A stretch of DNA of 64,000 bases from Cellulosimicrobium sp. ES-005 (lineage in GTDB: Bacteria > Actinomycetota > Actinomycetes > Actinomycetales > Cellulomonadaceae), in NCBI RefSeq assembly GCF_040448685.1, contig NZ_CP159290.1, positions 4,774,001 through 4,838,000 on the forward strand, in the 5' to 3' direction. Of the stretch, positions 147 to 31,108 are shown one piece after another (the first letter of the stretch is position 1; each line of letters begins with the position of its first letter). The translations under genes and the position numbers were made by a program. Under the pieces are notes generated by a model. It ran no database searches. It saw only the letters and a list, made by a program, of their open reading frames with translations, and was not told the DNA's origin.

Positions 147-217
147 AGCGGGCGACGGGAATCGAACCCGCGTAGCCAGTTTGGAAGACTGGGGCTCTAC
201 CATTGAGCTACGCCCGC
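147..217 (-). tRNA. tRNA-Gly (anticodon TCC)
   Basis: Read on the minus strand, the 7-bp acceptor stem GCGGGCG/CGCCCGC, the D-arm AGCTCAATGGTAGAG, the anticodon loop CTTCCAA and the T-arm GGTTCGATTCC form a complete 71-nt cloverleaf including the discriminator base. The anticodon TCC reads GGA/GGG glycine codons. CCA is not encoded. A TAAGGT -10-like box on the minus strand near 292-297 could drive it. Confidence 0.97.
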
Positions 218-410: not shown

Positions 411-486
<76 letters not shown>

Positions 487-16718: not shown

Positions 16719-17717
16719 ATGGGTCTGACGATCGGCTATGCCGCGATGCTGGAGCAGTTCCACCCGACCGAGGCCGTCGCGCTCTCGGCCTACGCGGAGG
16801 AGCACGGCTTCTCCGGCACCATGGCGGCCGACCACTTCCAGCCGTGGGTCCCCGCGCAGGGCGAGTCGTCGTTCGTCTGGAACGTGCTCACCGCGCTCGG
16901 CGAGCGCACGAGGGGCGACCTCGGCCCGGGCGTCACGGCGCCGACGTTCCGCTGGCACCCCGCGATGGTGGCCCAGGCGTCGGCGACGCTCGCCGCGATG
17001 TACCCCGGGCGGCACTGGCTCGGCCTGGGCTCGGGCGAGGCGCTCAACGAGCACGTGGTCGCGGGCTACTGGCCGGAGGCGCCCGAGCGCATCAACCGCA
17101 TGTTCGAGGCGATCGACGTCATCAAGAAGCTGTTCCAGTCCGGGCTCGACAACAAGGACGTCAAGCACTCCGGGCAGTTCTACAAGATGGAGTCCACGCG
17201 GCTGTGGACCATGCCCGAGGTCCCGCCGGAGATCCTCGTGGCCACGGCGGGCCCGGTGACGGCGAAGCGCGCCGGGCGGCACGCGGACGGCCTCATCACG
17301 GTCGGTGCGCCGCTGGAGAAGATCTCCATGCTGTTCGGCAAGTTCGACGACGGCGTCCGTGAGTCCGGCCGGGACCCGCAGGCGATGCCCAAGGTGCTGC
17401 AGCTCCACCTGTCCTGGGCGGCGACCGACGAGGAGGCGCTCGCGAACGCGATGACCGAGTGGCCCAACGGCGGCATGAAGTTCCCCAAGGCCGACATCCG
17501 CTCGCCGCACGACTTCGAGCAGATGGCCAAGCTCGTGCGCCCCGAGGACTTCGAGGGCCGCATGGTCATCTCGGCCGACCCCGACGAGCACCGCGCGTAC
17601 ATCCAGAAGTTCGTCGACCTCGGCTTCGACCGGATCTACCTCCACAACGTGGGCCGCAACCAGCGGGAGTGGATCGAGGTCTTCGGTCGCGAGGTCCTTC
17701 CGAAGCTGGCGCGATGA
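16719..17717 (+). CDS. LLM-class F420-dependent oxidoreductase (G6PDH-like family)
   Basis: This 332-residue TIM-barrel protein belongs to the luciferase-like flavin/deazaflavin family, which uses F420. The N-terminus [12 protein letters not shown] and the segments [20 protein letters not shown] and [20 protein letters not shown] resemble the F420-dependent glucose-6-phosphate dehydrogenase-like subgroup. The actual substrate may be a sugar phosphate or another alcohol, and sequence cannot decide. Its stop overlaps the cofE start (ATGA), so both are translated from one mRNA; cofE makes the polyglutamate tail of F420. Promoter TAGGGT lies 6 nt from the ATG. Confidence 0.88.
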
Positions 17718-18589
17718 CCTCCGGCGGAACGGGCGCGGTCGTGCCCGACGGCGGCGCGCGCGAGGGCGACGACGCGCGCCTGTCCGTGTGGGCGCCCTCG
17801 GGCCTGGGCGAGGTGCGCCCGGGCGACGACCTCGCCGCGCTCGTCGGCGACCTGCTCGCCGGGGCGCCGCCGGGCGACGCGCTCGCCGAGGGCGACGTCG
17901 TCGTGGTGACGAGCAAGGTCGTGTCCAAGGCAGAGGGCCGCGTGGTCGCCGCCGCCGACCGCGAGCAGGCGATCACCGACGAGACGGTGCGCGTGGTCGC
18001 GACGCGCGAGCGCCCGGGCCAGCCTCCGCTGCGCATCGTCGAGAACCACCTGGGCCTGGTCATGGCCGCGGCCGGGGTCGACGCCTCCAACACCCCCGAC
18101 GGGACGGTGCTCCTGCTCCCGCTCGACCCGGACGCCTCGGCCCGGGCGCTGCGGGCCGCGCTGCGCGACCGGTTCGGGCTCGACCGTCTGGGCGTCGTCG
18201 TCACCGACACCGCGGGTCGTGCGTGGCGCGACGGGCTGGTCGACGTCGCGATCGGTGCGGCGGGGATCGTCGTGGCCGAGGACCTGCGCGGCGGGACGGA
18301 CGCGCACGGCCGTCCCCTCTCCGTGACGGTCACGGCCGTCGCCGACGAGGTGGCCTCCGCGAGCGAGCTGGTGCGCGGCAAGACGGCGGGCCGTCCGGTC
18401 GCCGTCGTGCGAGGGCTGGGCCGGTACGTGGGCGACGACGACGGCCCGGGTGCGCGCGCGCTCGTCCGGCCCTCCGCCGACGACCTCTTCCGGGAGGGGA
18501 GCGCCGAGGCCTACGACCGCGGCTATCGCGACGGGTTCGGCGAGGGCTTCCGCGAGGGGTCGGGGAACGAGCCCCTCCCCGCCCGCTGA
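17714..18589 (+). CDS. cofE: Coenzyme F420-0:L-glutamate ligase
   Basis: CofE adds glutamate residues to F420-0 using GTP, the last step of F420 synthesis. The signature runs through [14 protein letters not shown] (about 58-71), [20 protein letters not shown] (about 158-177) and the conserved [21 protein letters not shown]. The 291-residue length equals a free-standing CofE; the nitroreductase-like FbiB C-terminal domain is missing, replaced by a charged tail ending [14 protein letters not shown]. It overlaps the LLM oxidoreductase by 4 nt. The upstream biosynthetic genes cofC, cofD and fbiC are not in the window. Confidence 0.92.
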
Positions 18590-18641
18590 GCGGCGGCACC
18601 CGGAGGGCGGCAATGTGCTGGCTCGCGGACGGCCGGCGGGC

Positions 18642-18647
18642 TAGCCT
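18642..18647 (+). promoter_or_regulatory. -10 box for leaderless small-protein mRNA
   Basis: TAGCCT lies 6 nt before the ATG at 18654, with no Shine-Dalgarno sequence. Confidence 0.55.
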
Positions 18648-18653
18648 GCCGGG

Positions 18654-19037
18654 ATGCTGCCCGCCGAGTGGATCCCGCACCGCCGCCCCGACGACCGCGA
18701 GCACGTGGGCTGGATCCGTCCCGAGGGCGATGCCTGGGTCGCGGTGTCGCTCCTCGGGCGCGAGCTGACCGGCCCGGTGGGCTGGCTCGAGGCGGAGGAG
18801 GCGCTGGACGGGCTCAGCCTCGCGTGGCTGGCCGACGTGTGGATGCTCGAGCGGGAGGACGCGCCGCCCCTGCGCGTCCGGCTCGTGGAGGTCACGCCGG
18901 ACGGCGTGGTCGTGCAGACCGACGACTTCGGCGCGATCGACGTCCCCGTGGAGCGCTACGACCTCCCGTGGCCGCCCCCGCCCACGCTCCGGCCCCGACG
19001 GCCGGGCGACCCGGACGGTCGCGTGCTGTCGCTCTGA
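18654..19037 (+). CDS. Small hypothetical protein, 127 residues
   Basis: I cannot assign a family. The protein has no signal peptide or membrane segment and looks like a compact beta-rich domain: WIRPEGDAWVAVSLLGRELTG, then VRLVEVTPDGVVVQTDDFGAIDVPVERYDLPWP. The C-terminal third is Pro/Arg-rich. Codon use is like that of its neighbours, so I take it as real. A TAGCCT -10 box 6 nt from the ATG supports the start. It stands between cofE and a convergent glyoxalase-like gene. Confidence 0.65.
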   Translation: MLPAEWIPHRRPDDREHVGWIRPEGDAWVAVSLLGRELTGPVGWLEAEEALDGLSLAWLADVWMLEREDAPPLRVRLVEVTPDGVVVQTDDFGAIDVPVERYDLPWPPPPTLRPRRPGDPDGRVLSL

Positions 19038-19073
19038 CCGCGACGACCGCCCGGGTGGGGACGCCCGGCGTGG

Positions 19074-19439
19074 TCAGCCCGCGTCCGTCGTGCCCTCGTA
19101 GAGGCCGATCTGGTTCCCGTCGGCGTCCTCGAACGCCGCCCACCACGACGTCGGGCTGATCTCGGACTTCTCCAGGACCACACGGCCCCCGAGCTCGCGC
19201 ACCTTCGCGAGCGTGTCCTCGATCGAGTCGACCTCGACGTAGCTGCGCGGGGTGGTGAACCCCTCGGACCGCGGGGCGAGACCGCCGCCGCTGATCTTGT
19301 TCGGCGCCTGCCACATGGGGTAGCCCTCGAAGCCCGGGACCTCCGCGATCTGCCAGCCGAAGAGCTCGCCGTAGAACTGCGTGGCCCGGCCGCTGTCGCT
19401 CACCGGGATGTCGATGTGCGTGATGTCTCCGTGCGCCAT
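19074..19439 (-). CDS. VOC/glyoxalase-family protein
   Basis: This 121-residue protein has the vicinal-oxygen-chelate fold: ITHIDIPVSDSGRATQFYGELFGWQI at the N-terminus and WWAAFEDADGNQIGLYEG at the C-terminus, the two beta-alpha-beta-beta-beta units of a single chain. His and Glu metal ligands are present (HIDIP; GLYEG). Such proteins cover isomerases, dioxygenases and resistance proteins; the reaction is unknown. The ATG at 19439 has GGGAGGA upstream. It converges on the 18654 gene with 36 nt between stops, and stands 85 nt from the AI-2E gene on the same strand. Confidence 0.8.
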   Translation of the reverse strand: MAHGDITHIDIPVSDSGRATQFYGELFGWQIAEVPGFEGYPMWQAPNKISGGGLAPRSEGFTTPRSYVEVDSIEDTLAKVRELGGRVVLEKSEISPTSWWAAFEDADGNQIGLYEGTTDAG

Positions 19440-19523
19440 GGTTCCTCCCCGTGCCGGTGACGGGCGGACACCCGCCGTCTGCCAGCCTAGGGACCGTGGA
19501 CGGGGTCGCAACAGGGTGCGCGG

Positions 19524-20738
19524 CTACGCCGTCTCCGGGGCAGGCGCGTCGTCCGCCGCCGAACCCTCAGGCTGGACCTGAGGGTCACGCTCGGTCTCCG
19601 CGTCCCGGGGCGAGGGCGCCTCGACACGCTCCGCCGCGGTCGGACCGTCGATTTCCGCCGCGCCGGGCGCCGGGTCCGTCCCACGGGCGCGGGACACGTC
19701 GTCGCCGGAGAGCCAGCGCAGCCAGCCCGAGCCGGGGTCGGGCTCCAGGACGAGCGCGCGCACGAGGAGCGTGAGCGGGATCGCGAGGATCGCGCCGAGC
19801 GGACCGATGACGAACGTCCAGAACACGACGGAGACGAAGCTGAGGGTCAGGCTGAGGTTCACGGCGTCCGCCACGAACTTGGGCTGAACGAGCACCTGGA
19901 GCACGACGTTCACGACGCAGTAGACCGCGACGACGGCGAGCGCGAGCTGCCACCCCCCGACGACGAACGCCATGATCGCGGGCGGCACGAGGCCGAGCAC
20001 GAAGCCGATGTTGGGGATGAAGTTCGTGACGAACGCGAGGATCGCCCACACCGTCGGCGCGGGGACGGAGAGCAGCCAGAGCGCGACGCCGTCGACGATC
20101 GCGACGACCGCGCCGAACGACGCGTTGACGACGAAGTAGCGCCGCACGCCGCCGCTGAACCGGGCCGCGCGGTCGATCGTCGCGGCGCGCTCGGTGCCGA
20201 ACACCGTGGTCGCGGTCGAGTACCGCGCTGCGTCCGCCGCCATGAAGATCGCGTAGGCGAGCACGAAGAAGAAGGCCGTCGCGATGCCGAGCGCCATGCC
20301 CGACACGTTCCCGGCGAGGCTGAGGACCCGGGCGGGCTCCAGCCACGACGTCGCCGCCTCCGCGACGTCCGTGTCGATCCCGACGGCGGAGAGCTGGTCG
20401 ACGACGTCCTCGACCGAGCGCACGAGCGCCGGCAGGTACTCGCGCACCAGGTCGGCGAACCGGAAGCCCGCGAACACCAGCATCGCGACGAGCACGGCGA
20501 GGATGAGGTAGGCGACCACGACGACCGCCGTCGTCGCGGCCCACCGCGGCCAGCCCCGGCGCTCGAGCGGGAACCGCACGGGGTGGCAGATGATGACGAT
20601 CACGGCCGCGAGGAGCAGCGGCGCGAGCACCTCCCGCGCCGTGTGGACGCCGGCGAGCACGACGACGCCCGCCGCGAGAGCCAGCAGCGTGCGGGTGGAG
20701 GGTGGCAGCGCCGGGGCGCGCGACGTCGTCGTGGTCAC
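19524..20738 (-). CDS. AI-2E family transporter (PerM-like)
   Basis: This 404-residue membrane protein has about eight transmembrane segments. The family pattern is clear: the N-terminal pair of helices, the large extracellular helix between helices 3 and 4, and NFIPNIGFVLGLVPPAIMAF, followed by PLGAILAIPLTLLVRALV. Family members include the AI-2 exporter TqsA and Na+/H+ antiporters, so the substrate is unknown. The last 60 or so residues are a cytoplasmic acidic, Pro-rich tail. The GTG at 20738 has TATCGT 6 nt upstream (plus-strand 20745-20750) and no Shine-Dalgarno sequence, suggesting a leaderless mRNA. Confidence 0.88.
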   Translation of the reverse strand: MTTTTSRAPALPPSTRTLLALAAGVVVLAGVHTAREVLAPLLLAAVIVIICHPVRFPLERRGWPRWAATTAVVVVAYLILAVLVAMLVFAGFRFADLVREYLPALVRSVEDVVDQLSAVGIDTDVAEAATSWLEPARVLSLAGNVSGMALGIATAFFFVLAYAIFMAADAARYSTATTVFGTERAATIDRAARFSGGVRRYFVVNASFGAVVAIVDGVALWLLSVPAPTVWAILAFVTNFIPNIGFVLGLVPPAIMAFVVGGWQLALAVVAVYCVVNVVLQVLVQPKFVADAVNLSLTLSFVSVVFWTFVIGPLGAILAIPLTLLVRALVLEPDPGSGWLRWLSGDDVSRARGTDPAPGAAEIDGPTAAERVEAPSPRDAETERDPQVQPEGSAADDAPAPETA

Positions 20739-20744
20739 GCGCCG

Positions 20745-20750
20745 ACGATA
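20745..20750 (-). promoter_or_regulatory. -10 box for leaderless AI-2E transporter mRNA
   Basis: TATCGT on the minus strand lies 6 nt before the GTG at 20738. Confidence 0.55.
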
Positions 20751-20827
20751 GCGGCCGGGCGTCGCCGCGCACGCGGGCGTCCGTCGCGGTGCTGCCGGTG
20801 GTGGGGCCCGCGAACGTGCCCGCCGGG

Positions 20828-21433
20828 TCAGGCCTTCGCGGCCTTCGCCGCGGCCTTCTGCGCCTTCTTGAACGTGCGGACCTCCGCGAGCGACTCCGCG
20901 CTCGTGACGTCGGCGATGGACCGGCGCGACCCCTCGTCGCCGTAGTGGCCCGCCGCCTCCCGCCATCCCGCCGGCTGCACGCCGCGCTGCTTGCCGAGCA
21001 GCGCGAGGAAGATCCGGGCCTTCTGGTCGCCGTACCCGGGCAGCGCGCGCAGCCGGGCGAGGACCTCCGCGCCGGTCGGCGCCGCCGTGCCGTCGTCGCC
21101 GGCGCCGGGCGCGGTCCAGATCCGGGTCGCGTCGCCGTCGTACTCGTCGACGACGACGCGCGCCAGGTCCTGCACCCGGGCCGCCATGGAGCGCCCGTAC
21201 CGGTGGATGGCCGGGGGCGTCGTCGCGAGCGTGACGAACGCGTCGGGGTCCGCCTCCGCGACGGCGCGCGGGTCGATGGAGCCGAGGCGGTCGCGGATCT
21301 TGCGCGGTCCCGCGAACGCGTGCTCCATGGGGTACTGCTGGTCGAGGAGCATGCCGACGAGGAGGGCGAAGGCGTCGTCGCTGAGGAGCGCGTCCGCGTC
21401 GGGGTCGCCGGTGATCCAGAGCTGGTCGGTCAT
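20828..21433 (-). CDS. HhH-GPD family base-excision repair protein
   Basis: This 201-residue protein looks like the small actinobacterial HhH-GPD DNA glycosylase group: FALLVGMLLDQQYPMEHAFAGP near the N-terminus, then the helix-hairpin-helix LRALPGYGDQKARIFLALLGK (about 130-150). The C-terminus is a Lys/Ala-rich tail (KKAQKAAAKAAKA) that could bind DNA. No iron-sulfur Cys cluster is present, unlike MutY or Nth. The lesion it repairs is unknown. The start at 21433 (MTDQLW) is chosen; in-frame ATGs at 21442 and 21445 are possible alternatives. Upstream, the chitinase gene is divergent. Confidence 0.75.
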   Translation of the reverse strand: MTDQLWITGDPDADALLSDDAFALLVGMLLDQQYPMEHAFAGPRKIRDRLGSIDPRAVAEADPDAFVTLATTPPAIHRYGRSMAARVQDLARVVVDEYDGDATRIWTAPGAGDDGTAAPTGAEVLARLRALPGYGDQKARIFLALLGKQRGVQPAGWREAAGHYGDEGSRRSIADVTSAESLAEVRTFKKAQKAAAKAAKA

Positions 21434-21676
21434 GCCGTCCATCATGGCAGGACGGCGGCGCCTCCGTCCGGTCGCGGGTCCCGCGGAGCCGCGCAGGGTC
21501 GTCGCCCGGGGCATCCGTATACGGGGTGCTACGGACGCGTAGATCGCGAAAGATACGCAATCGCACCGATGGGCGCGGGTCGCGGACGCCGTAGCGTCGA
21601 TCCGTCGGTCGCCCGCTGCGCCGACGTCTCCCGCACCCGGCGCCACGGACGACGCCGGCCTGGACCGGAGGTTCCC

Positions 21677-22945
21677 ATGTTCCGAAGGAAGCTGCTCACG
21701 CTCGCGACCACGACGGCGCTCGCCGTCGGCGCGGCCGTCGGCCTCGCCGCGCAGCCGGCGTCCGCCGCGACGCCGATCCCCGACCACGTGTTCTCGCCGT
21801 ACTACGAGATGTGGCTGGGCGACGACATCAGCGCGGTGTCCCAGCAGGCCGGCGCCGACCACATCACGCTGGCGTTCGCCCAGACCGAGCGGCAGGGGTC
21901 GTGCACGCTCTACTGGAACGGCGACACGTCGCTGCCGATCGCGCCGTCGAGCTTCGGCGCCCAGGTGGACGCGATCCAGGCGCGCGGCGGCAACGTGATC
22001 CCGTCCCTCGGCGGCTGGACCGCGGACGACGCGACCGAGGACGGGCAGCTCACGGAGCTGGCGGACTCGTGCACGGACGTCAACGCGATCGCGGCGCAGA
22101 TCCAGAAGCTGATCACGACCTACGACGTCGAGCGCATCGACTTCGACATCGAGGCGGACTCGATCAACAGCAGCGCCGGGGTGGACCGTCGCAACAAGGC
22201 GCTGAAGATCGTCCAGGACTGGGCCAAGGCCAACGGCCGGACGTTCGAGGTGCAGTACACGCTGCCGACCACGACGCAGGGCCTGGCCGCGTCGGGCAAG
22301 AACCTGCTGCGCAACGCCGTGACGAACGGCGTCGAGGTCTCGGTCGTCAACGTCATGACGTTCGACTACTGGGAGGGCGACCGCGCGAACATGGCGCAGG
22401 ACACCGTCACCGCGACGACCGGCCTGGTGAGCTTCCTCAAGACGATCTACCCGTCGAAGACGGACGCGCAGCTCTGGAACATGGTCGGCATCACGGAGAT
22501 GATCGGCGTCTCCGACTGGGGCGTGGGGGAGACGTTCTCCCTCGCGAACGCGGACTCGGTGCTCGCCTTCGCGCGGCAGAAGGGCGTCGCCTACCTGTCG
22601 TTCTGGGCACTGCACCGCGACACCGGCGGCTGTGCCGGCGCGCAGACGACGCAGGACGACTGCTCCGGGCTGGCGCAGCAGAAGTTCGAGTTCTCGAAGA
22701 AGTTCGCGCCGTTCACCTCCGGCGCGACGGACCCGACAGACCCGACGGACCCCACCGACCCGACGGACCCCACCGACCCGACCGACCCGACCTGCACGGC
22801 GGCGCCGTGGAGCGCGTCGCAGGTGTACGTGGCCGGGACGACGGCGTCCTTCGAGGGGCACACGTGGAAGGCCAAGTGGTGGACGCTCGGGGAGAAGCCC
22901 GGCGCCGCGACCTGGGGCCCGTGGGCCGACCTCGGCGCGTGCTGA
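21677..22945 (+). CDS. Secreted GH18 chitinase with CBM5/12 domain
   Basis: The enzyme hydrolyses chitin outside the cell. A Sec signal peptide (1-30, MFRRKLLTLATTTALAVGAAVG... cleaved after ASA) precedes a GH18 barrel. The catalytic segment reads IDFDIEADS, with Asp155, Asp157 and the acid Glu159; the first Asp of the usual DxxDxDxE is a Glu. A Thr-Asp-Pro tandem linker (about 354-374, also a DNA repeat near 22730-22793) leads to a C-terminal CBM5/12 chitin-binding domain with the WSASQVYVAG and HTWKAKWWT signatures. Length is 422 residues. The ATG at 21677 has GGAGG 5 nt upstream. The 243-nt upstream gap has no CebR-type TGGGAGCGCTCCCA operator that I can see. Confidence 0.93.
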   Translation: MFRRKLLTLATTTALAVGAAVGLAAQPASAATPIPDHVFSPYYEMWLGDDISAVSQQAGADHITLAFAQTERQGSCTLYWNGDTSLPIAPSSFGAQVDAIQARGGNVIPSLGGWTADDATEDGQLTELADSCTDVNAIAAQIQKLITTYDVERIDFDIEADSINSSAGVDRRNKALKIVQDWAKANGRTFEVQYTLPTTTQGLAASGKNLLRNAVTNGVEVSVVNVMTFDYWEGDRANMAQDTVTATTGLVSFLKTIYPSKTDAQLWNMVGITEMIGVSDWGVGETFSLANADSVLAFARQKGVAYLSFWALHRDTGGCAGAQTTQDDCSGLAQQKFEFSKKFAPFTSGATDPTDPTDPTDPTDPTDPTDPTCTAAPWSASQVYVAGTTASFEGHTWKAKWWTLGEKPGAATWGPWADLGAC

Positions 22946-23044
22946 TCCGCTGGCGCTCGCGGACGCCCGGCCGGACGTCCGGCCGGGCGTCCGCCGTCTC
23001 GTGGTGCACGAGCGTCGACCGCGGGACGCGGCACGGGCGCGGTG

Positions 23045-23467
23045 CTAGGCGGACGTCGCGGTCGACGCCCGCAGCAGTCTCCCGGTCCGGAACTCGTCCA
23101 CCCCTGTGCGGCGCAGGACGGCGCTCGTCCAGCCGGGCAGGAGCCGCAGCCCGTCCTCGCCCGTGACGCGGCGCAGGTCCTCGACGCGGAACTCCTCGCC
23201 CCGCCGCTCCAGCACGAACCCGCCCGCGGCGTCGACGTTGCGCACCCAGTCGACGTCCGGCCCGTACGTGAGCGCGAGGACGACGCGGACCGGCTCTCCC
23301 GGCGCGTCGCGGTACGCGAACGCGAAGACGGGCGTGCGGTAGACGCGGCCGCTGCGTCGGCCCACGTGGCGCGCGACCGCCATCGGCCCGACGCCGGTCG
23401 CGACGCGCAGCATCACGGGGTTGAGGAAGCGCTTGTTGCTGCGGGTCACCCAGCGAGGGATCGGCAT
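23045..23467 (-). CDS. DUF385-type deazaflavin-dependent nitroreductase-like protein
   Basis: This 140-residue split-barrel protein resembles the Ddn/DUF385 family of F420H2-dependent reductases, such as mycobacterial Ddn: ATGVGPMAVARHVGRRSGRVYRTPVFAFAYR and VVLALTYGPDVDWVRNV are family hallmarks. Typical substrates are quinones or nitro compounds; the native one here is unknown. The ATG at 23467 sits 50 nt from the divergent phosphoesterase start. It adds to the F420-linked genes in this window (16719, 17714, 27024, 28075-31108). Confidence 0.82.
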   Translation of the reverse strand: MPIPRWVTRSNKRFLNPVMLRVATGVGPMAVARHVGRRSGRVYRTPVFAFAYRDAPGEPVRVVLALTYGPDVDWVRNVDAAGGFVLERRGEEFRVEDLRRVTGEDGLRLLPGWTSAVLRRTGVDEFRTGRLLRASTATSA

Positions 23468-23504
23468 GCCCCATCGTGGCCCGGCGCGGACCGTCCGCGC
23501 GACC

Positions 23505-23510
23505 TATCGT
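23505..23510 (+). promoter_or_regulatory. -10 box for leaderless phosphoesterase mRNA
   Basis: TATCGT lies 7 nt before the GTG at 23518. No Shine-Dalgarno sequence is present. Confidence 0.6.
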
Positions 23511-23517
23511 GAGACCC

Positions 23518-24021
23518 GTGCCGACCCGCCTGCTCCTGCTGAGCGACACCCACGTCCCCGTCCGGGCGCGGGCGCTCCCGGACCAGGTGTGGCGCGCGGT
23601 CGACGACGCCGACGTCGTGGTGCACGCGGGCGACTGGGTGAGCGCCGACCTGCTGGACGCGCTGGAGGCGCGGGCGTCCCGGCTGGTCGGGGTCGCCGGC
23701 AACAACGACGGCCCCGCGCTGCACGCGCGTCTGCCCGAGGTGGCGCGCGCGACGATCGACGGGCTGCGGCTCGTCGTCGTGCACGAGACGGGGACGAAGC
23801 AGGGGCGCGAGCGGCGCGCCGACGCCGCGTTCCCGGGCGCGGACCTCCTGGTCTTCGGGCACAGCCACGTCCCGTGGGACACGACCTCGCCGGGCGGGCT
23901 GCGGCTCCTCAACCCCGGGTCGCCGACGGACCGCCGTCGTCAGCCGGTCGGGACGTACCTCACGGCCGTCGTCGACGACGGCGTGCTCCGGGACGTCGCG
24001 CTCGTGCCGGTGCCGCGGTGA
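23518..24021 (+). CDS. YfcE/MJ0936-type metallophosphoesterase
   Basis: This 167-residue calcineurin-like phosphoesterase has the dimetal motifs in order: LLSDTHV (about 7-13), VHAGDWV (about 39-45), AGNNDG (about 60-65), VVHETG and FGHSHVP with the final HxH. The His replaced by Glu in the VVHE-G motif is a deviation from the usual HG(H/N). Members hydrolyse small phosphodiesters; the substrate is unknown. The GTG at 23518 has the TATCGT box 7 nt upstream. It is convergent with the AraC gene (6-nt gap). Confidence 0.88.
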   Translation: MPTRLLLLSDTHVPVRARALPDQVWRAVDDADVVVHAGDWVSADLLDALEARASRLVGVAGNNDGPALHARLPEVARATIDGLRLVVVHETGTKQGRERRADAAFPGADLLVFGHSHVPWDTTSPGGLRLLNPGSPTDRRRQPVGTYLTAVVDDGVLRDVALVPVPR

Positions 24022-24027
24022 GCCGCC

Positions 24028-24978
24028 TCAGGCGGCGCCCGCGCGCGCCCGGTGCGCGGCGGGGCTCACGCCGCGCACGCGCTTGAAGGCGGCGCTCAGC
24101 GCGAACGGCGTCGCGTACCCGACCGCGCGTGCGACCGACGTCAGGGTGGCGTCGGGCTCCAGCAGGAGGTCCGCCGCGAGGTCGAGGCGCCAGCCGGTGA
24201 GGTAGCTCATCGGCGGCTCGCCGACGAGCGTGGTGAAGCGCCGCGAGAACGCCGCGCGCGACAGCCCGACCTCGCGCGCGAGCGCGTCCACGGTCCAGGC
24301 GCGGGCCGGGTCGTGGTGGATGAGGCGCAGCGCCGCGCCGACCACCGGATCCGCGTCGGCGCGGTACCAGCCGGGTGCGTCGTCGCGCGAGAGCCACGTG
24401 CGCAGGCACGAGATGAGGAGGAGGTCGAGCAGGCGGTCGAGCACCGCCTCCTGCCCGGGCAGGTCCTGGACGACCTCGCGCGCGAGCATCTCCACGAGCG
24501 TCCCGTCGACGTCGCCGCTGCGCAGCACCACGCGCTGCGGCAGGACGCGCAGGACGCGACGGCCCACCTCGCCGTCGAGCGGGTAGGTGCCCGTGATGAT
24601 GACGGTCTCGCCACCGGGGTCGTTGCCCCACGACCGCACGCCGAGCACCGTCATGGGGGAGGGCCCGCCGTCGACCGCACGGCACATGTCGGACTCGGGC
24701 CCGATGACCACCTGGGGCGCGGTCGTCGGCGCGTCCGCCACGACGTAGTGGTCGGGGCCGCGCAGCAGGACGACGTCCCCCGCCCCGACGTGCTCGCCCG
24801 GGTCCGCGCCGTCGTCGCCCACGACCGGCCCGACCCAGCCCGAGCCGCGCAGCACGGGCACGATCGTCAGCGGCGCCTCGTCCTCGATGCGCATGCCCCA
24901 CGGGGCCCGGAGGTGGCTGCGCAGGAGGAAGGCGCCGCGGGCGCGCGGCCCGTCGAGGAGCCCGGCGACGACGTCCAT
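24028..24978 (-). CDS. AraC-family regulator with cupin_6-type N-terminus
   Basis: This 316-residue transcription factor has an N-terminal sensing domain beginning MDVVAGLLDGPRARGAF (AraC cupin_6-like, 1-185) and two C-terminal HTH motifs: VDALAREVGLSRAAFSRRFTTLVGEPPMSYLTGWRLDLA and ATLTSVARAVGYATPFALSAAFKRVRGVSP. The start at 24978 has TACCCT 6 nt upstream (plus-strand 24985-24990), a leaderless arrangement. It is divergent from the NmrA-DUF1772 pair with 164 nt between, so it probably controls that pair; members of this subfamily often sit next to NAD(P)-binding genes. The inducer is unknown. Confidence 0.88.
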   Translation of the reverse strand: MDVVAGLLDGPRARGAFLLRSHLRAPWGMRIEDEAPLTIVPVLRGSGWVGPVVGDDGADPGEHVGAGDVVLLRGPDHYVVADAPTTAPQVVIGPESDMCRAVDGGPSPMTVLGVRSWGNDPGGETVIITGTYPLDGEVGRRVLRVLPQRVVLRSGDVDGTLVEMLAREVVQDLPGQEAVLDRLLDLLLISCLRTWLSRDDAPGWYRADADPVVGAALRLIHHDPARAWTVDALAREVGLSRAAFSRRFTTLVGEPPMSYLTGWRLDLAADLLLEPDATLTSVARAVGYATPFALSAAFKRVRGVSPAAHRARAGAA

Positions 24979-24984
24979 CCGGTC

Positions 24985-24990
24985 AGGGTA
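24985..24990 (-). promoter_or_regulatory. -10 box for leaderless araC-like mRNA
   Basis: TACCCT on the minus strand lies 6 nt before the ATG at 24978. Confidence 0.55.
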
Positions 24991-25142
24991 CGCACCGTCC
25001 CGGAGCCGCGGCCAGGGGTCGAGGCGCCGCGGGGACGTGAGACGGTCGCGTATGGAGACGAGCGTCAGGGCCATGTCACGTCTCGCCGGTGCCCGGTTGA
25101 CTGGCATTCGTCCCCGCACCGACGCTCGACAGGAGAGACGCC

Positions 25143-26048
25143 ATGAGCGCTACGACACCGAACCCGGTTCCCGCCTCGACCGACACCCCGACCGCTGCCC
25201 CGGCCCCCGGTCCGGTCCTGGTCCTCGGCGCGACGGGCAAGACCGGCCGCCGGGTCGCCGACCGCCTCGACGCCCTCGGGCTCCCCGTGCGGCGCGCGTC
25301 CCGCTCCGGGGCCGTCCGCTTCGACTGGGAGGACGAGACCACGTGGCGCCCCGCGGTCGCCGGGGCCGAGGCGGTGTACGCGGTCTACGTGCCCGACCTC
25401 GCGATCCCGGGCTCCCCGGAGACCGTCGCCCGGTTCGCGGCGCTCGCCCGGGAGGCGGGGGTGCGCCGCCTCGTCCTGCTCTCCGGTCGCGGCGAGGTCG
25501 AGGCACAGCGCGCGGAGGTGCTGGTCGCCGAGGCGTTCCCCGGCCGCACCGTGGTCCGGTGCGCGTTCTTCGACCAGAACTTCAGCGAGAGCTTCCTGCT
25601 CGATCCCGTGCTCGACGGCGTCCTCGCGCTCCCGGTGGACCGGGTCGCCGAGCCGTTCGTCGACCTCGAGGACGTCGCCGACGTCGCGGTCGCTGCTCTC
25701 GTCGACGACGCGCACGCCGGCCGGGTCTACGAGCTCACCGGGCCGCGTGCGATCACGTTCGCCGAGGCGGTGGCGGAGATCGCGAGGGCGAGCGGGCACG
25801 ACGTGCGGTTCGCGCCGATCACCATGGACGAGTTCGTCGCGGGGCTGCGGGCGATCGGGCTGCCCGACGACGTCGTGGGCCTCATGCGCTACCTCTTCAC
25901 CGAGGTGCTCGACGGCCGCGGGACCCCGGTCGCCGACGGCGTCCGGCAGGCGTTGGGCCGCGAGCCGCGCGACTTCCGCGAGTTCGCGGTGCGCGAGGCC
26001 GCGACCTGGCCGGCGACGGTCACGTCGACGTCCGGGCAGCCCTCGTGA
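25143..26048 (+). CDS. NmrA-family NAD(P)-binding protein
   Basis: This 301-residue atypical short-chain dehydrogenase has the nucleotide-binding motif VLVLGATGKTGRRVADRL (about 27-44) after a Pro/Thr-rich N-terminal tail of 24 residues. FFDQNFSESFLLDPVLDGVLALPVD and FVDLEDVADVAVAALVDDAHAGRVYELTGP match NmrA/SDR5-like proteins. Members sense NADP redox state or reduce quinones (QorB-like); catalytic use is uncertain as no YxxxK is evident. AGGAGAGA lies upstream of the ATG. The stop overlaps the next start (GTGA). The AraC gene is divergent. Confidence 0.85.
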   Translation: MSATTPNPVPASTDTPTAAPAPGPVLVLGATGKTGRRVADRLDALGLPVRRASRSGAVRFDWEDETTWRPAVAGAEAVYAVYVPDLAIPGSPETVARFAALAREAGVRRLVLLSGRGEVEAQRAEVLVAEAFPGRTVVRCAFFDQNFSESFLLDPVLDGVLALPVDRVAEPFVDLEDVADVAVAALVDDAHAGRVYELTGPRAITFAEAVAEIARASGHDVRFAPITMDEFVAGLRAIGLPDDVVGLMRYLFTEVLDGRGTPVADGVRQALGREPRDFREFAVREAATWPATVTSTSGQPS

Positions 26049-26515
26049 GCGCCTTCGCGGTGCTCGTCGTCGCGGGTGCGGTCGCGACGGGGCTCGCGGG
26101 CGGGGTGCTCTTCGCGTTCTCCACGTTCGTGATGGGCGGGCTGCGCCGCCTCCCCGCCGCCGACGGGGCCGCGGCCATGGTCGCGATCAACGAGGACGCG
26201 CTGCGCCCGCCGCTGATGCTCCTGCTCGCGGCCAGCGTGCTCGTGCCCGCCGCGGCGGCCGTCGTCGGCCTGGTCGGCGGGTCGCCCGGCGCGGTGCGGG
26301 CGCTCGCGGGCGCGGTGGTCTCCGCTGTCGGGATCCTCGGCGTCACGGCCGTGGGCAACGTCCCGCTCAACGAGCGTCTCGACGCGGCGGCGGAGCGGCC
26401 CGCGGACCTCGCCGCCGCGTGGGCCGCGTTCCTCCCGCGCTGGCTCGCGTGGAACCACGTGCGGACCGTCGCCGGCGCGGTGGCGACCGCGCTGCTGGCG
26501 GTCGCGCTCGTCTGA
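26045..26515 (+). CDS. DUF1772 (anthrone oxygenase-like) membrane protein
   Basis: This 156-residue protein has four hydrophobic helices. GGVLFAFSTFVMGGLRRLP near the N-terminus and VGNVPLNERLDA and WNHVRTVAGAVATALL near the C-terminus are typical of DUF1772, a family that includes fungal anthrone oxygenases such as AflX/HypC relatives. Its GTG overlaps the NmrA stop, so they are co-translated and probably work in the same redox pathway. A biochemical role is not known for bacterial members. Confidence 0.8.
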   Translation: MSAFAVLVVAGAVATGLAGGVLFAFSTFVMGGLRRLPAADGAAAMVAINEDALRPPLMLLLAASVLVPAAAAVVGLVGGSPGAVRALAGAVVSAVGILGVTAVGNVPLNERLDAAAERPADLAAAWAAFLPRWLAWNHVRTVAGAVATALLAVALV

Positions 26516-26577
26516 GGTGCCCGCGCGCCGGGCCTCCGTCGCGGAATAGCCACGGCGGGGGGCCGGTTGCGCACGAC

Positions 26578-27027
26578 ATGAGCGACGTCGCAGCGGCCGC
26601 GCCGGCCGACGAGCAGGAGACCATCCGTCGGGTGCTCGAGGGCACCGAGACCTGGGCCGTCGTCGGCCTGTCGAACAACACGTCGCGCGCTGCGTACGGC
26701 GTGGCGCGCGTGCTCCAGCAGCACGGCAAGCGCATCGTCCCCGTCCACCCGTCCGCGGAGACCGTGCACGACGAGCAGGGCTACGCCACGCTCGCGGACG
26801 TCCCGTTCCCGGTCGACGTCGTCGACGTGTTCGTGCGCTCCGAGCTCGCGGGCGACGTCGCCGACCAGGCCGTCGCGATCGGCGCGAAGGCGGTCTGGTT
26901 CCAGCTCGACGTGATCGACGAGGACGCCGCGCAGCGCGTGCGCGACGCCGGGCTCGACATGGTCATGGACCGCTGCCCCGCGATCGAGCTGCCGCGCCTG
27001 GCCGCGACCACCACGAAGGAGGCGTGA
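26578..27027 (+). CDS. CoA-binding (YccU-type Rossmann) protein
   Basis: This 149-residue single-domain protein matches the CoA_binding_2/YccU family: TWAVVGLSNNTSRAAYGVARVLQQHGKRIVPVHP (about 22-55), then VFVRSELAGDVADQAVAIGAKAVWFQLDVIDEDAAQR and MDRCPAIELPRL. The family binds CoA or a related nucleotide; its physiological role is unclear. The ATG at 26578 lacks a clear Shine-Dalgarno sequence. Its stop overlaps the start of the F420-type reductase (GTGA), so it may share its mRNA. Confidence 0.85.
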   Translation: MSDVAAAAPADEQETIRRVLEGTETWAVVGLSNNTSRAAYGVARVLQQHGKRIVPVHPSAETVHDEQGYATLADVPFPVDVVDVFVRSELAGDVADQAVAIGAKAVWFQLDVIDEDAAQRVRDAGLDMVMDRCPAIELPRLAATTTKEA

Positions 27028-27455
27028 CCGTGCCCGCGATCGACACCACGTCCGACCTGGGCTCGCGCGCCGCGACCCGTCTCGCCGCCGAGCCGGTCCT
27101 GTGGTTCGTGACCGTCGACCCGCACGACGCCCCCCAGCCGACCCCCGTGTGGTTCGTGTGGGACGGTGCGGACGAGGTCGTGGTCAAGTCCCAGCCCCGC
27201 ACCGCGAAGCTGCGCAACGTCCGCGGGAACCACCGCGTCGCGGTGCACCTCAACAGCACCCGGTCGGGGGACGACGTCGTCGTCCTCACCGGCACCGCCG
27301 CGATCGACGACGCCGGCCTCTCACCCGACGAGCGCGTCGCGTACGACGCGAAGTACGGCGAGGGGATCCGCGGCCTCGGCATGACTCCCGACGGCTTCCA
27401 CGAGGACTACTCCGTCACCGTGCGCGTCCGTCTGGAGCGCCTCCGCGGCTACTGA
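27024..27455 (+). CDS. Rv3369-type F420-dependent reductase (TIGR03667-like)
   Basis: This 143-residue split beta-barrel protein belongs to the pyridoxamine-5'-phosphate-oxidase-like group that in actinobacteria binds F420. LAAEPVLWFVTVDPHDAPQPTPVWFVWDG and VVKSQPRTAKLRNVRGNHRVAVHLN resemble Rv3369. The substrate is unknown. An AGGAGGC Shine-Dalgarno sequence at 27016-27022 precedes GTG 27024; GTG 27030 is an alternative. It overlaps the CoA-binding gene by 4 nt. It is another F420-linked gene near the proposed importer. Confidence 0.82.
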   Translation: MTVPAIDTTSDLGSRAATRLAAEPVLWFVTVDPHDAPQPTPVWFVWDGADEVVVKSQPRTAKLRNVRGNHRVAVHLNSTRSGDDVVVLTGTAAIDDAGLSPDERVAYDAKYGEGIRGLGMTPDGFHEDYSVTVRVRLERLRGY

Positions 27456-27514
27456 GCGAGCACCGCGCCTCGGCCCGGCCGGTCAAGGTGAAGACACGAC
27501 CCGGAAGGCCGCGG

Positions 27515-28048
27515 TCAGCGGTCGAGGCGGGCGACCGCCAGCTCGAGCGCCGTGTCGAGCTCGTCCTTCGGGACGTGCACCTCGCCGATCGACATCGAGA
27601 AGGGAGGCTCGTCCAGTCCGAGGGCACGGGCCGCGGGCTCGAGGTCGAGGCCCGCGCCGTCCTCGGAGACCCCGGTCCTGACGTACACGGGCATGCCCGA
27701 CTCCTCGGGCAGCACGACCACGAGCACCGCGGCCAGCGCGTCCGGGTGCAGGTCGGGGCGTGGCGCGTCCTCGGCCGGCAGCAGGCTCACCCCGACACCC
27801 AGGTCGCACGCGCCCTCGCAGTTGCTCGAACCGGTGTACAGGCTCACCTCGACGGGGAGGTCCGCCTCGTCCAGCGCGTCCTGGACCCCGGGCAGGGCCC
27901 GTTCGACGTCCGCGTACGAGACGTTCGAGCTGTCGAACGGGGACCGCCCGTCGAGCACCGCGCAGCCGGAGAGAGACACGGCGCAGGCCACGGCGAGCCC
28001 GGCCGCGGCGAGCATCGGCGCACGACGGGGAACCAGCGAGAGACGCAC
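27515..28048 (-). CDS. Predicted lipoprotein, unknown function
   Basis: This 177-residue protein has an Arg-rich start, a hydrophobic core and the lipobox LSGC at Cys29, so it is probably lipid-anchored on the outer face of the membrane. The mature part is acidic with no named domain; a Cys-x5-type pair (CEGAC) could form a disulfide. The GTG at 28048 has TACCCT 6 nt upstream (plus-strand 28055-28060). It lies just downstream of the importer ATPase on the same strand, 26 nt from that stop, but has its own promoter. Confidence 0.75.
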   Translation of the reverse strand: MRLSLVPRRAPMLAAAGLAVACAVSLSGCAVLDGRSPFDSSNVSYADVERALPGVQDALDEADLPVEVSLYTGSSNCEGACDLGVGVSLLPAEDAPRPDLHPDALAAVLVVVLPEESGMPVYVRTGVSEDGAGLDLEPAARALGLDEPPFSMSIGEVHVPKDELDTALELAVARLDR

Positions 28049-28054
28049 CCGCCG

Positions 28055-28060
28055 AGGGTA
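28055..28060 (-). promoter_or_regulatory. -10 box for leaderless lipoprotein mRNA
   Basis: TACCCT on the minus strand lies 6 nt before the GTG at 28048, between the importer ATPase and the lipoprotein. Confidence 0.5.
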
Positions 28061-28074
28061 CGCGAGCGGGTCGT

Positions 28075-28974
28075 TCAGTCCCGCGGCGCGAACGTGAGGA
28101 CGGGTCGGCCCGTCCGGGGGTGGGTGAGCACCTCGCACCGCACGCCGTAGACCGGGTCGAGCACCTCGGGGACCAGGACCTCGCGCACGTCGCCCGCGGC
28201 GACGACCCGCCCGTCCGCCAGCACGACGACGTGGTCGCACGTCTGCGCCGCGAGGTTGAGGTCGTGGAGCGCGGCGAGGACGGTCACCCCGTCGTCGGCG
28301 AGGTCGCGCAGGACGCGCATCGTGTCGAGCTGCGCGGCGATGTCGAGGTGGTTGGTCGGCTCGTCGAGCAGGAGCAGCGCGGGCTCCTGCGCGAGCGCGC
28401 GCGCCAGGTGCACGCGCTGGCGCTCGCCGCCGGAGAGGGTCGCGACCTCCCGCTCGGCGAAGCCGGACATCCCGGCGCGGGCGAGCGCCGCGGCGGCCAC
28501 CTCCCGGTCGTGCGCGGAGTCGCCCGCCAGGAGCGATCGGTGGGGGATGCGGCCCAGCAGGACGGCGTCGAGCACGGAGAGCGGGAGGTCGGTCGTCGCG
28601 TCCTGCTCGACGAGCGCGAGCACGCGCGCGCGTCGCCGCCGCGGCATCGTGAGCAGGTCCGCGCCGTCGAAGCGCGCCCGCGCGGCGTCGTCGGGCCCCG
28701 TGGACGGGGCGCGCACCCCCGCGAGCACGCGCAGGAGGGTCGACTTGCCGGAGCCGTTGGGCCCGAGCAGCCCGCTCACCGCGCCGGCCGGAGCGGTGCA
28801 GTCGACGCCGTCGAGGATCAGGCGACCGTCGACGGACCAGGACACGCGTGTGGCGTCGAGCCCGTCCGTGCCGTCGCGACCGGACGGGCTGGTCCCGTCG
28901 CCGAGGCGGTCCGGCACGGCGTCGGCGCCGACCGGGGGAGCCGCGTGCGCCGTCGTGCGCGTCGTCCCGCTCAT
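28075..28974 (-). CDS. ABC importer ATPase, proposed F420-0 transporter
   Basis: This 299-residue nucleotide-binding subunit powers the FecCD-type permease encoded just before it. It has Walker A GPNGSGKST, Q-loop EQDATTDLP, signature LSGGERQRVHLARAL, Walker B LLLLDEPTNHLD and the H-switch ALHDLNLA. The first 40 or so residues are an Ala/Pro/Gly-rich extension before the domain. It overlaps the permease gene (ATGA). In general form it is a siderophore/cobalamin-type ATPase; the F420-0 assignment rests on the binding protein and the presence of cofE and F420 enzymes nearby, as proposed for such three-gene cassettes in actinobacteria (TIGR03873). Confidence 0.82.
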   Translation of the reverse strand: MSGTTRTTAHAAPPVGADAVPDRLGDGTSPSGRDGTDGLDATRVSWSVDGRLILDGVDCTAPAGAVSGLLGPNGSGKSTLLRVLAGVRAPSTGPDDAARARFDGADLLTMPRRRRARVLALVEQDATTDLPLSVLDAVLLGRIPHRSLLAGDSAHDREVAAAALARAGMSGFAEREVATLSGGERQRVHLARALAQEPALLLLDEPTNHLDIAAQLDTMRVLRDLADDGVTVLAALHDLNLAAQTCDHVVVLADGRVVAAGDVREVLVPEVLDPVYGVRCEVLTHPRTGRPVLTFAPRD

Positions 28975-30056
28975 GCGGCCTTCCTCCCTCGCCACAGGAG
29001 CAGCGCGAACACCGGCGCGCCGATCGCGGCCGTAACGATCCCGACAGGCAGCTCGCGAGGCGCGAACACCGTGCGCGCGAGCGTGTCCGCCCAGACGAGG
29101 AACGTCGCCCCGAACAGCGCGGAGAGCGGCAGGAGCAGCCGGTGCCGCGCGCCCGTGAGGAGCCGCACGGCGTGCGGCAGGATCAGGCCGACGAACCCGA
29201 TGGACCCCGACTGGGAGACGAGCGCCCCGGTGAGCAGCGCGACGCCCACGAGCAGCGTCCAGCGCACGCGCGCGACGTCGACCCCGAGCGTGGACGCGGC
29301 GGTGTCGCCGAACGTGAAGGCGTCCAGCACGGAACCGGTCGACGCGAGCAGGGTCCCGAGCACGAGGGTCGCGCCGCCCGCGACCGCGACGGAGGTCCAC
29401 GTCGCTCCGGCGACGGACCCCATGAGCCACGAGAGGATCTCGCGGTAGGAGTCGCCGGTCGCGGACCAGAAGATGACGAAGCTCGTCGCGGCCGCCGCGA
29501 GCTGGCTCACCGCGAGGCCCGCGAGCACGGTCCGCGTCGGCGTGAGCGCGCCGAGCGCGCCGGCGAGGCCGAGCGCCGCGACGAGCGCGAGCACGGCGCC
29601 CCCGAACGCCGCGACCGGCAGGAGCACGGTCAACCCGGCGACGAGCACGAGCACCGCGCCGAGCGACGCTCCCGAGGACAGCCCGAGGAGGTACGGGTCC
29701 GCGAGGGGGTTGCGCGTGAGCGACTGCATGACGACGCCGCACACGGCGAGACCCGCGCCCACGGCCGCCGCGGTGAGCACGCGGGGGAGGCGAAGCTGCC
29801 ACACCATGCCGTCCTGGAGGGCCCCGAGCGGCTCGAGGCCGAGCAGCCCGCCGAGCCCGAGGTGCGTCGCGACGGAGCGCCACACGTCCCCGACCGCGAG
29901 GTCCGCCGGGCCGATCGTCACCGTGACGAGCACCGTCACGACGAGGGCGCCGACGCCGACCGGCACCCACCAGCCCGCGCCCCGGCGCGCGCCGGTCCCC
30001 GCGCCGTCCCGTCGGGCGGGCGGCGCGGGGGCGGGCCGGGTGCGCAGCGTGGTCAC
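28971..30056 (-). CDS. ABC importer permease (FecCD family), proposed F420-0 transporter
   Basis: This 361-residue membrane protein has about ten helices and the BtuC/FecCD landmarks: RLPRVLTAAAVGAGLAVCGVVMQSLTRNPLADPYLLGLSSGASLGAV, GSIGFVGLILPHAVRLLTGARHR and RELPVGIVTAAIGAPVFALLL. It starts at GTG 30056, overlapping the binding-protein stop, and its own stop overlaps the ATPase start, so the three are translated as a unit. It would carry the ligand released by the lipoprotein across the membrane. Substrate choice (F420-0 or Fo versus an iron chelate) cannot be told from the permease alone. Confidence 0.85.
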   Translation of the reverse strand: MTTLRTRPAPAPPARRDGAGTGARRGAGWWVPVGVGALVVTVLVTVTIGPADLAVGDVWRSVATHLGLGGLLGLEPLGALQDGMVWQLRLPRVLTAAAVGAGLAVCGVVMQSLTRNPLADPYLLGLSSGASLGAVLVLVAGLTVLLPVAAFGGAVLALVAALGLAGALGALTPTRTVLAGLAVSQLAAAATSFVIFWSATGDSYREILSWLMGSVAGATWTSVAVAGGATLVLGTLLASTGSVLDAFTFGDTAASTLGVDVARVRWTLLVGVALLTGALVSQSGSIGFVGLILPHAVRLLTGARHRLLLPLSALFGATFLVWADTLARTVFAPRELPVGIVTAAIGAPVFALLLWRGRKAA

Positions 30057-31108
30057 AGGCCGAGCGCCTCCAGCTGTGCCGCGAGGTCCACGACGGCGTC
30101 GACGTTGCGCACGCCGGCCTCGGTCGCCGGGAACGGGACCGTCAGGTAGCGGCCCTCGCGCACGGCCGCCATCTCGGCCGTCGCCGGGTTGGACTCGAGC
30201 CGCTCGATCTTCGCCTCGGCGGTGTTCCACGCCGCGTCGACCAGGACGAGGACGTCGGGGTCGGCGGCGATCGCCTCCTCCCACGCGAACGCGGTCCAGG
30301 TGTCGTGCACGTCGCCCGCGACGTTCTCCAGGCCGACGGCGTCCATGATCATCTGCGGCGCGCCGATGCCTGCGCCGACGTACGGGATGTCGTCGCCGGA
30401 CGAGTACCACAGGGCCGTGAGCCCGCGCTCGTCCCGGGCGACGCCGTCGAGCGTCGCGCGCTGCTCCGCGACGAGGTCGGCGGCCGCGTCCTGCGCGTCG
30501 AAGATCGTGCCGACCTCGGTGATCTCGGCGAAAACGTCGTCGAACGTCAGCGGGTCGGGCATGTACTCGGGCGCCTTGCACGCGGCGGGGGAGACGTAGG
30601 TCGCGACGCCGAGCTGCGCGAGCGTCTCGCGGTCGCCTGCGCCCTCCGCCGTGAGGTTGGACTCCCAGCCCGCGTAGACGAGGTCGGGCTCGGTCTCCAG
30701 GACCGCCTCCGCACCGGGCACCTTGTCCGAGAGCGGCTCGGCGACGGCGGGGACGTCCGCCGCGGCGTCGGCGAGCGACTCGGGGACCGGGCCGTCGGCG
30801 AACGCGCTCGCGACGATCCGGTCGCCCAGCCCGAGCGCGAGCAGCATCTCCGTCGTGCTCGACTTGATCGTCACCACGCGCTCCGGCGCCGCGTCGAACG
30901 TCACCTCGAACCCGCAGTCGTCGAGCGTGAGGGGGTAGGTGGTCGCCCTCGCGTCGCCCGACGGCGTGGCGTCGACGCCCGCGGTCGGCTCGTCGCCAGG
31001 TGCGGTGCCCGACGAGCAGGCGGCGAGCAGCAGGGCGAGCGTGGCGGTCGGGAGCACGAGGACGGCGCGGCGGACGGGCTGGCGGTGCACGGTGCGGGAC
31101 GAGGGCAC
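30053..31108 (-). CDS. Binding lipoprotein of proposed F420-0 ABC importer
   Basis: This 351-residue lipoprotein (lipobox LAAC, Cys31) has the two-lobed TroA/BtuF-type fold. Its N-terminal segment FDAAPERVVTIKSSTTEML, followed by the acidic AGWESNLTAEGAGDRETLAQLGV, resembles the clade described as the proposed F420-0 binding protein (TIGR03868) more than ordinary siderophore proteins; this is from memory of the family. The gene leads the three-gene operon. GTG 31108 is the start. About 180 nt separate it from a TAGGCT -10 box at 31298-31303, and this leader contains a strong hairpin. Neighbouring F420 genes support the assignment; an iron-siderophore ligand is the main alternative. Confidence 0.72.
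   Translation of the reverse strand: MPSSRTVHRQPVRRAVLVLPTATLALLLAACSSGTAPGDEPTAGVDATPSGDARATTYPLTLDDCGFEVTFDAAPERVVTIKSSTTEMLLALGLGDRIVASAFADGPVPESLADAAADVPAVAEPLSDKVPGAEAVLETEPDLVYAGWESNLTAEGAGDRETLAQLGVATYVSPAACKAPEYMPDPLTFDDVFAEITEVGTIFDAQDAAADLVAEQRATLDGVARDERGLTALWYSSGDDIPYVGAGIGAPQMIMDAVGLENVAGDVHDTWTAFAWEEAIAADPDVLVLVDAAWNTAEAKIERLESNPATAEMAAVREGRYLTVPFPATEAGVRNVDAVVDLAAQLEALGL

Follow-up and report, generated by a model that had tools for sequence, protein, structure and literature searches.

A predicted ABC importer of Cellulosimicrobium whose main cargo is probably Fo, the deazaflavin core of F420

Background

The closest described relative of the system considered here is the putative F420-0 ABC (ATP-binding cassette) transporter of NCBIfam, families TIGR03868, TIGR03869 and TIGR03873. 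Import of F420-0 was reportedly proposed for this family by Selengut and Haft, and the 2010 proposal is said to have argued for F420-0 from founding genomes that mostly carried cofE only. A member of the family is encoded at positions 28075-31108 of the stretch of DNA from the soil bacterium Cellulosimicrobium sp. ES-005 analysed here (the window, 64,000 nucleotides, G000:C1:4774001-4838000, from a single-contig genome of 4.86 Mb). These three genes are predicted to make a BtuFCD-type ABC importer, and the gene content of this and related genomes suggests that its main cargo in this organism is probably Fo, the neutral deazaflavin core of F420, and not F420-0. The F420-0 proposal is based on hosts that have neither cofC and cofD nor Fo synthase; here Fo synthase alone is missing, and cofC, cofD and cofE are all present, as would be expected of a host that imports Fo.

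The literature matches listed, in which subscription papers are thinly covered, include none that deals with import of Fo or F420-0 by actinobacteria, and the words "salvage" and "uptake" do not occur in the accessible part of a FEMS review (PMC8498797).

The importer cassette

The three genes form one block with stop-to-start overlaps, and all three products pass the cut-offs of the "F420-0 transporter" families (Table 1; family calls are profile bit scores compared with curated family cut-offs). An earlier note on this DNA, written from the sequence alone, had proposed the TIGR03868 profile as a check on the substrate-binding protein (SBP), and that profile recognises it. The N-terminus of the SBP reads like that of a lipoprotein, a hydrophobic run followed by Cys, and its closest named relatives are those of Cellulosimicrobium funkei and C. 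cellulans (96% identity). No promoter or terminator signal was found near the SBP start. Plasmid carriage was considered and set aside, as a search of the plasmid collection gave no hit at E<=1e-50. SBP genes 92% and 63% identical to that of the window also lie on contigs titled Sphaerisporangium cinnabarinum (L110) and Blastococcus sp. MAG (L172), respectively; the former seems to be a Cellulosimicrobium assembly with a wrong label or with contamination.

The SBP has the fold of haem, siderophore and B12 binding proteins. The models for siderophore uptake give scores far below their cut-offs (EitA, 145.8 vs 640; enterobactin SBP, 18.5 vs 205), as does BtuF of the B12 importer (23.1 vs 234), and the window contains no cobalamin riboswitch. 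A siderophore or B12 importer is set aside on these grounds; the earlier note had named a best match to siderophore or cobalamin proteins, with binding shown, as fatal to its own reading.

The F420 pathway in the genome and genus

From cofE without cofC or cofD nearby, the earlier note had argued that F420-0 is imported. That argument fails, since a genome search finds cofD next to cofC, their reading frames overlapping, at C1:506063-507788, on the same contig as the window and about 0.56 Mb from it if the contig is circular. The scores are 298.5-298.9 bits for cofD (TIGR01819, cut-off 257.45) and 111.4-111.8 bits for cofC (TIGR03552, cut-off 105), and CofD retains both metal-binding aspartates, Asp45 and Asp57 in the FbiA numbering taken from the accessible part of PMC7253369. 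With CofC and CofD encoded and both aspartates kept, the organism should therefore be able to use Fo. At E<=1e-15 the genome has no cofE match besides the gene in the window, which lies 9.5 kb from the importer ATPase gene.

The genome-wide search called for by the earlier note thus recovered cofC and cofD and did not recover Fo synthase: no cofH was found at E<=1e-30 and no cofG at E<=1e-20 or E<=1e-5, in a search that covered the known CofG and CofH families. A complete F420 route elsewhere in the genome, which would have undone the salvage idea, was thus not found. The same holds across the genus, where cofD is above cut-off in 17 of 17 genomes searched (two of them less than 90% complete) and cofG was found in none at E<=1e-5. 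Because cofC, cofD and cofE are present and Fo synthase is missing, what this organism lacks is the making of Fo; Fo, not F420-0, must therefore come from outside if F420 is made.

Importer and Fo synthase across the order and class

The importer and Fo synthase nearly exclude each other in both the order and the class. The order sample comprises 248 genomes, of which 233 reach 90% completeness with contamination of 5% or less; the SBP is above cut-off in 59, cofD is above cut-off in 96, cofE matches occur in 152, and cofH and cofG mark the same 52 genomes. Fo synthase is present in one of the 59 importer genomes (G197) vs 51 of the 189 others. By p-values that ignore kinship, the exclusion is strong among cofE-bearing genomes (1/58 with importer vs 48/94 without, p 5e-12) and among cofD-bearing ones (1/33 vs 49/63, p 4e-13). 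One genus (g38) has both kinds of genome, G097 with the importer and no Fo synthase, and G069, G083, G167 and G205 with Fo synthase and no SBP above cut-off. Among the 178 genomes of the class sample (193 in all) that lie outside the order, cofG occurs in 0 of 16 importer genomes vs 124 of 162 others (p 9e-10); one family accounts for fourteen of the 16 and another for the remaining two, and in the genus of those two eight sampled genomes have cofG. SBP homologues below the cut-off do co-occur with cofG (for example in G281, G306, G409 and G422), so the exclusion holds for the curated family only.

In the order, all importer genomes but one also have cofE (58 of 59), the exception (G194) being 69% complete. 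Of the 59, cofE without cofD is seen in 25, and cofD together with cofE in 33 (32 lacking Fo synthase and one having it); the last is a partial genome that has neither cofD nor cofE. As compared by eye, the cofC gene is listed for all 33 cofD-bearing importer genomes (32 above cut-off) and is above cut-off in none of the 26 cofD-less ones.

Salvage by import in this organism is well supported by these patterns. A different explanation of the missing genes is that some unrecognised enzyme, not homologous to the known ones, makes Fo and that the importer is unrelated; the restriction of our search to known CofG and CofH families allows this. The same gap recurs independently in the importer genomes of the class, however, as it does in those of the order; this suggests that the importer has replaced Fo synthesis and makes the explanation extremely improbable.

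Gene neighbourhood of the importer

The importer neighbourhood was compared in 50 loci, 49 from relatives and that of the window. The cofE family is found near the importer in 46 of the 50 and the LLM oxidoreductase family in 42, and this grouping is not chance. Outside the order the LLM gene lies beside the importer in 16 of 16 stretches (L189-L204), in none of which cofE, cofD or cofC was found, and of all the neighbours of the importer the LLM oxidoreductase gene is thus the most constant. It is behind the ATPase gene on the same strand in L193 and L203. Nothing else is generally conserved around the importer beyond the ABC genes, cofE, LLM and cofD; several recurrent open reading frames there have no Pfam match and may be shadow frames.

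Some other cargo was also considered, for example a siderophore or corrinoid, or whatever the LLM enzyme next door acts on. In its favour, outside the order LLM is the sole F420-type gene seen beside the importer, and the SBP fold is a shared one. Such a cargo would leave the exclusion of Fo synthase and the 58/59 co-occurrence with cofE unexplained, and the siderophore and B12 evidence above is also against it; we regard it as very unlikely.

In 13 of the 20 loci that have both cofD and the permease gene, drawn from five families, the gap between the end of the ATPase gene and a cofD on the same strand is -7 to 43 bp (measured to the start of the tblastn match). An operon link of this kind is absent from the window genome. 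CofD acts on Fo, and for that reason its position directly behind the ATPase gene counts in favour of Fo as the cargo. Both metal-binding aspartates are retained in all 31 CofD proteins examined from the 33 cofD-bearing importer genomes.

Two types of binding protein

When the columns of the SBP alignment were ranked by their association with the presence of cofD, residue 299 (basic or not) came first and residue 292 (Ser or not) second, and these two positions were chosen on that ranking. Five of the six best columns (280, 292, 299, 303 and 309; the sixth is 129) fall within 30 residues, which happens in 0.2% of random draws. Residue 299 is basic in 2 of 33 cofD-bearing genomes vs 26 of 29 cofD-less ones, where it is His or Lys; Ser292 occurs in 5/33 vs 26/29, and the two together in 0/33 vs 24/29. 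The window SBP, with Ala292 and Ala299, has the residues typical of cofD-bearing genomes. The contrast at residue 299 remains when genera are counted (1/15 cofD-bearing vs 15/18 cofD-less, p 1.3e-5) and within families f1 (1/14 vs 5/5, p 5e-4) and f13 (0/4 vs 12/14, p 5e-3); families f9 and f20 have no contrast there.

Five genomes were added after the positions had been chosen, and all five fit at residue 299 (cofD-less G206 His, G212 Lys, G234 Lys and G062 Lys; cofD-bearing G008 Asp), while three of five fit at 292, G206 and G062 having Ala. The first three are included in the 29 and G008 in the 33; G062 was left out of the 29 as far diverged (294 bits, 35% identity), and G281, which has Fo synthase and an SBP under the cut-off with Ala292/Glu299, was not counted. 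The 16 importer genomes outside the order all have Ala292, and two of them have a basic residue 299.

These patterns bear on whether the importer is instead a broad one, whose SBP would grip the Fo head group common to its ligands and, whatever the lineage, carry Fo as well as F420-0 and perhaps F420, the downstream genes reflecting whatever is supplied from outside. The 78 SBP rows of the three groups agree without exception at 38 positions, which makes one core ligand plausible, and the cofD label changes at least eight times on the SBP tree; there is also a precedent in BtuCD-F, which is reported to import both cobinamide and cobalamin (PMC5269720). The two positions that track the cofD label suggest a shift in specificity instead, and we consider a broad importer unlikely, although it is the strongest of the competing explanations.

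Proposed route and points against it

For this organism we propose that Fo would be caught outside the cell by the SBP and moved inward by the permease and ATPase; CofC and CofD, whose genes are present, would couple it to a phospho-acid, and CofE from the window would add the glutamate tail. The F420 product would then serve the F420-type enzymes; among these the LLM protein, whose gene is joined to cofE, is the partner met most constantly. In the cofE-only relatives the same importer family most likely carries F420-0, whose phosphate side chain, to judge from the residue patterns, would be held by Ser292 and the basic residue 299 in the presumed cleft. Of the precursor import suggested in the earlier note, salvage therefore stands, given the absence of Fo synthase from this and 16 other genomes of the genus and its near-exclusion with the importer; F420-0 as the ligand here is not supported, as CofC and CofD are encoded and the SBP is of the cofD-bearing type.

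Published reports, as far as their accessible parts go, support the supply and use of external Fo: Fo escapes into the spent medium of Streptomyces, and an fbiC mutant regains fluorescence from wild-type spent medium (PMC12282290); Fo was found in the supernatant of Mycetohabitans (PMC11104420); and F420 is formed from supplied Fo in yeast equipped with CofC, CofD and FbiB (PMC10949242).

A number of observations weigh against Fo as the cargo, or confine it to part of the family. Fo is neutral and in the cases just cited, as far as they could be consulted, crosses membranes without this importer, so it may need none. The 25 importer genomes with cofE and no cofD mean that the family is not an Fo importer everywhere. 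At the level of genera the exclusion is weaker, two genera being shared between the 28 with importer and the 20 with Fo synthase among 86 (p 0.015), and one genome of the order set, G197 (L006, L088), has the importer, cofC, cofD, cofE and Fo synthase together. Fourteen of the 248 genomes have cofD and cofE with neither Fo synthase nor importer, and these may take up Fo by diffusion or by another carrier; no importer subunit above 50 bits lies beside their cofD-cofE genes in a search limited to that transporter type. In the SBP, the well-supported branches give only three independent contrasts at residue 299, which is not significant (on average 1.8 the same way, 0.0 opposite and 1.2 without difference), and there are exceptions at that residue, namely cofD-bearing G060 and G084 with Lys and cofD-less G091, G117 and G223 without a basic residue. 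Finally, cofD-cofC lies remote from the importer in the window genome and nine others, with CofD proteins that form a distinct group.

Some of these cases have features of their own. Among the stretches of the 14 genomes without importer (L211-L224), 13 carry a cofD-cofE pair without an LLM match, and L218 has an LLM-cofE-cofC-cofD group without the importer. G117 (L055) lacks cofD and yet has an SBP of the cofD type (Ala292/Asp299); the other four sampled importer genomes of its genus have cofD, and G117 looks like a recent loss of cofD or an assembly gap. The unlinked cofD-cofC pairs (L044, L093-L101) come from ten genomes in two families, and their CofD proteins score at least 370 bits among themselves and about 150-211 to importer-linked CofD, which hints at transfer or re-acquisition.

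The 25 genomes with cofE and no cofD also suit another explanation, that the family imports F420-0 (or F420) everywhere, as its NCBIfam name says, and that CofC and CofD here act on Fo that enters by diffusion, Fo being known to diffuse out of cells (PMC12282290, in the part consulted). It is hard to see why cofD should then stand directly behind the ATPase gene in 13 loci if the product of CofD is what is imported; cofC and cofD are retained throughout the genus, and the window SBP is without the Ser292 and basic 299 of cofE-only hosts. We consider this explanation improbable, and Fo remains our preferred cargo for the Cellulosimicrobium importer.

Should Fo indeed be the cargo, the annotated family name would be mistaken about the ligand in roughly half of the importer genomes of the order sample (33 of 59, those with cofD), and Cellulosimicrobium and its relatives would be auxotrophic for Fo, relying on other microbes for a redox cofactor; feeding Fo to production strains would be a further use of such an importer. 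We put forward tentatively, at somewhat short of even chances, the larger view that the family consists of two importers, one for Fo and one for F420-0, that the switch follows two cleft residues and occurred on several occasions, with Fo synthase lost from lineages either by itself or together with cofC and cofD, and that many importer-bearing actinobacteria may live on the Fo or F420-0 of others as shared vitamins of soil communities. The older proposal of F420-precursor import would thereby become directly testable, with two SBP types, two fluorescent ligands, two residues and a structure (4MLZ) of one type.

Other genes of the window

The genes that the earlier note had listed as an LLM oxidoreductase, cofE, an Rv3369-like protein and an ABC trio are real, all being above curated cut-offs (Table 1). 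The LLM gene and cofE overlap by 4 nt; the LLM protein is below the models for F420-glucose-6-phosphate dehydrogenase (213.6 vs 420) and TIGR03885 (309.2 vs 398.7). The DUF385 protein of the earlier note survives in weaker form, as a DUF385-like gene on the minus strand that falls just under the family cut-off and has no Pfam match, while the plus-strand frame at this locus matches nothing. The DUF385-like and Rv3369-like proteins are both possible users of F420.

Table 1. Features of the window that bear on F420 and its precursors, with profile scores in bits against cut-offs
Feature	Position	Strand	Remarks
LLM oxidoreductase, F420-type, TIGR03557 family	16719..17717	+	281.8 bits, cut-off 210.4
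cofE, F420-0:gamma-glutamyl ligase	17714..18589	+	TIGR01916 226.8 vs 180.65; Pfam F420_ligase
DUF385-like (nitroreductase family deazaflavin-dependent oxidoreductase), weak	23045..23467	-	TIGR00026 41.9 bits, cut-off 46.35
Rv3369-like PPOX-class F420-dependent oxidoreductase	27024..27455	+	TIGR03667 141.4 vs 125.3
Predicted importer ATPase	28075..28974	-	TIGR03873 392.9 vs 372.4; start overlaps permease stop (ATGA)
Predicted importer permease	28971..30056	-	TIGR03869 526.1 vs 437.35; GTG start overlaps SBP stop
Predicted importer substrate-binding lipoprotein (SBP)	30053..31108	-	TIGR03868 483.8 vs 392.4
SBP residue 299 codon (Ala here)	30212..30214	-	first turns of helix 297-306 in model
SBP residue 292 codon (Ala here)	30233..30235	-	last residue of strand 286-292 in model

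Between cofE and the importer (19524-27027) are genes without an evident role in F420 metabolism: an AI-2E family transporter (-), a GH18 chitinase-like protein with CBM5/12 (+), a calcineurin-like phosphoesterase (23476-24021, +), an AraC-type regulator (24028-25119, -), and NmrA-like, anthrone-oxygenase-like and CoA-binding proteins. Two tRNA genes, at 147-217 (-) and 411-484 (+), are the sole Rfam matches of the window at gathering scores.

The CofE of the window is a single-domain protein with no fused FbiB C-terminal reductase, its PRK13294 match spanning only profile positions 8-257 of 449. A reductase above the cut-off of the FbiB C-terminal model (TIGR03553, 249.55) was found in none of the 80 genomes searched. 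The best match in the genome itself is a nitroreductase near the cofD-cofC pair (L044:4570-5187, +), which at 48.8-55.8 bits is far under that cut-off, scores almost as well to BluB and is a mere candidate reductase; the same nitroreductase lies near the pair in the relatives G008, G027, G044, G074, G186 and G231.

Comparison with known systems

Like the putative F420-0 transporter of NCBIfam, the window locus has the same cassette, with three subunits above the cut-offs and with cofE and an F420-type LLM gene nearby. It differs from the F420-0 transporter proposal in that its host has cofC and cofD, so that the missing molecule is Fo, and from the cofE-only hosts of that family in the Ala292/Ala299 of its SBP in place of the Ser/basic pair. 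The known structure of the cofD-less type is PDB 4MLZ, a periplasmic binding protein of Jonesia denitrificans with Ser where the window SBP has Ala292 and Lys where it has Ala299; Jonesia is, as we take it from the family description, without cofC and cofD. The vitamin B12 importer BtuCD-F is clearly distinct, BtuC scores (224.2 vs 461 and 220.9 vs 334) being below cut-off like that of BtuF, and no cobalamin riboswitch accompanies the genes. The CofD of the genome resembles CofD of M. mazei (3C3D) and FbiA (6UVX), with which it aligns near full length (215.8 and 188.2 bits), and the single-domain CofE is unlike FbiB, no gene in the genome reaching the cut-off for the C-terminal part of the latter. 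What is new is thus a re-assignment of the ligand in part of a known family; it is not a new kind of system.

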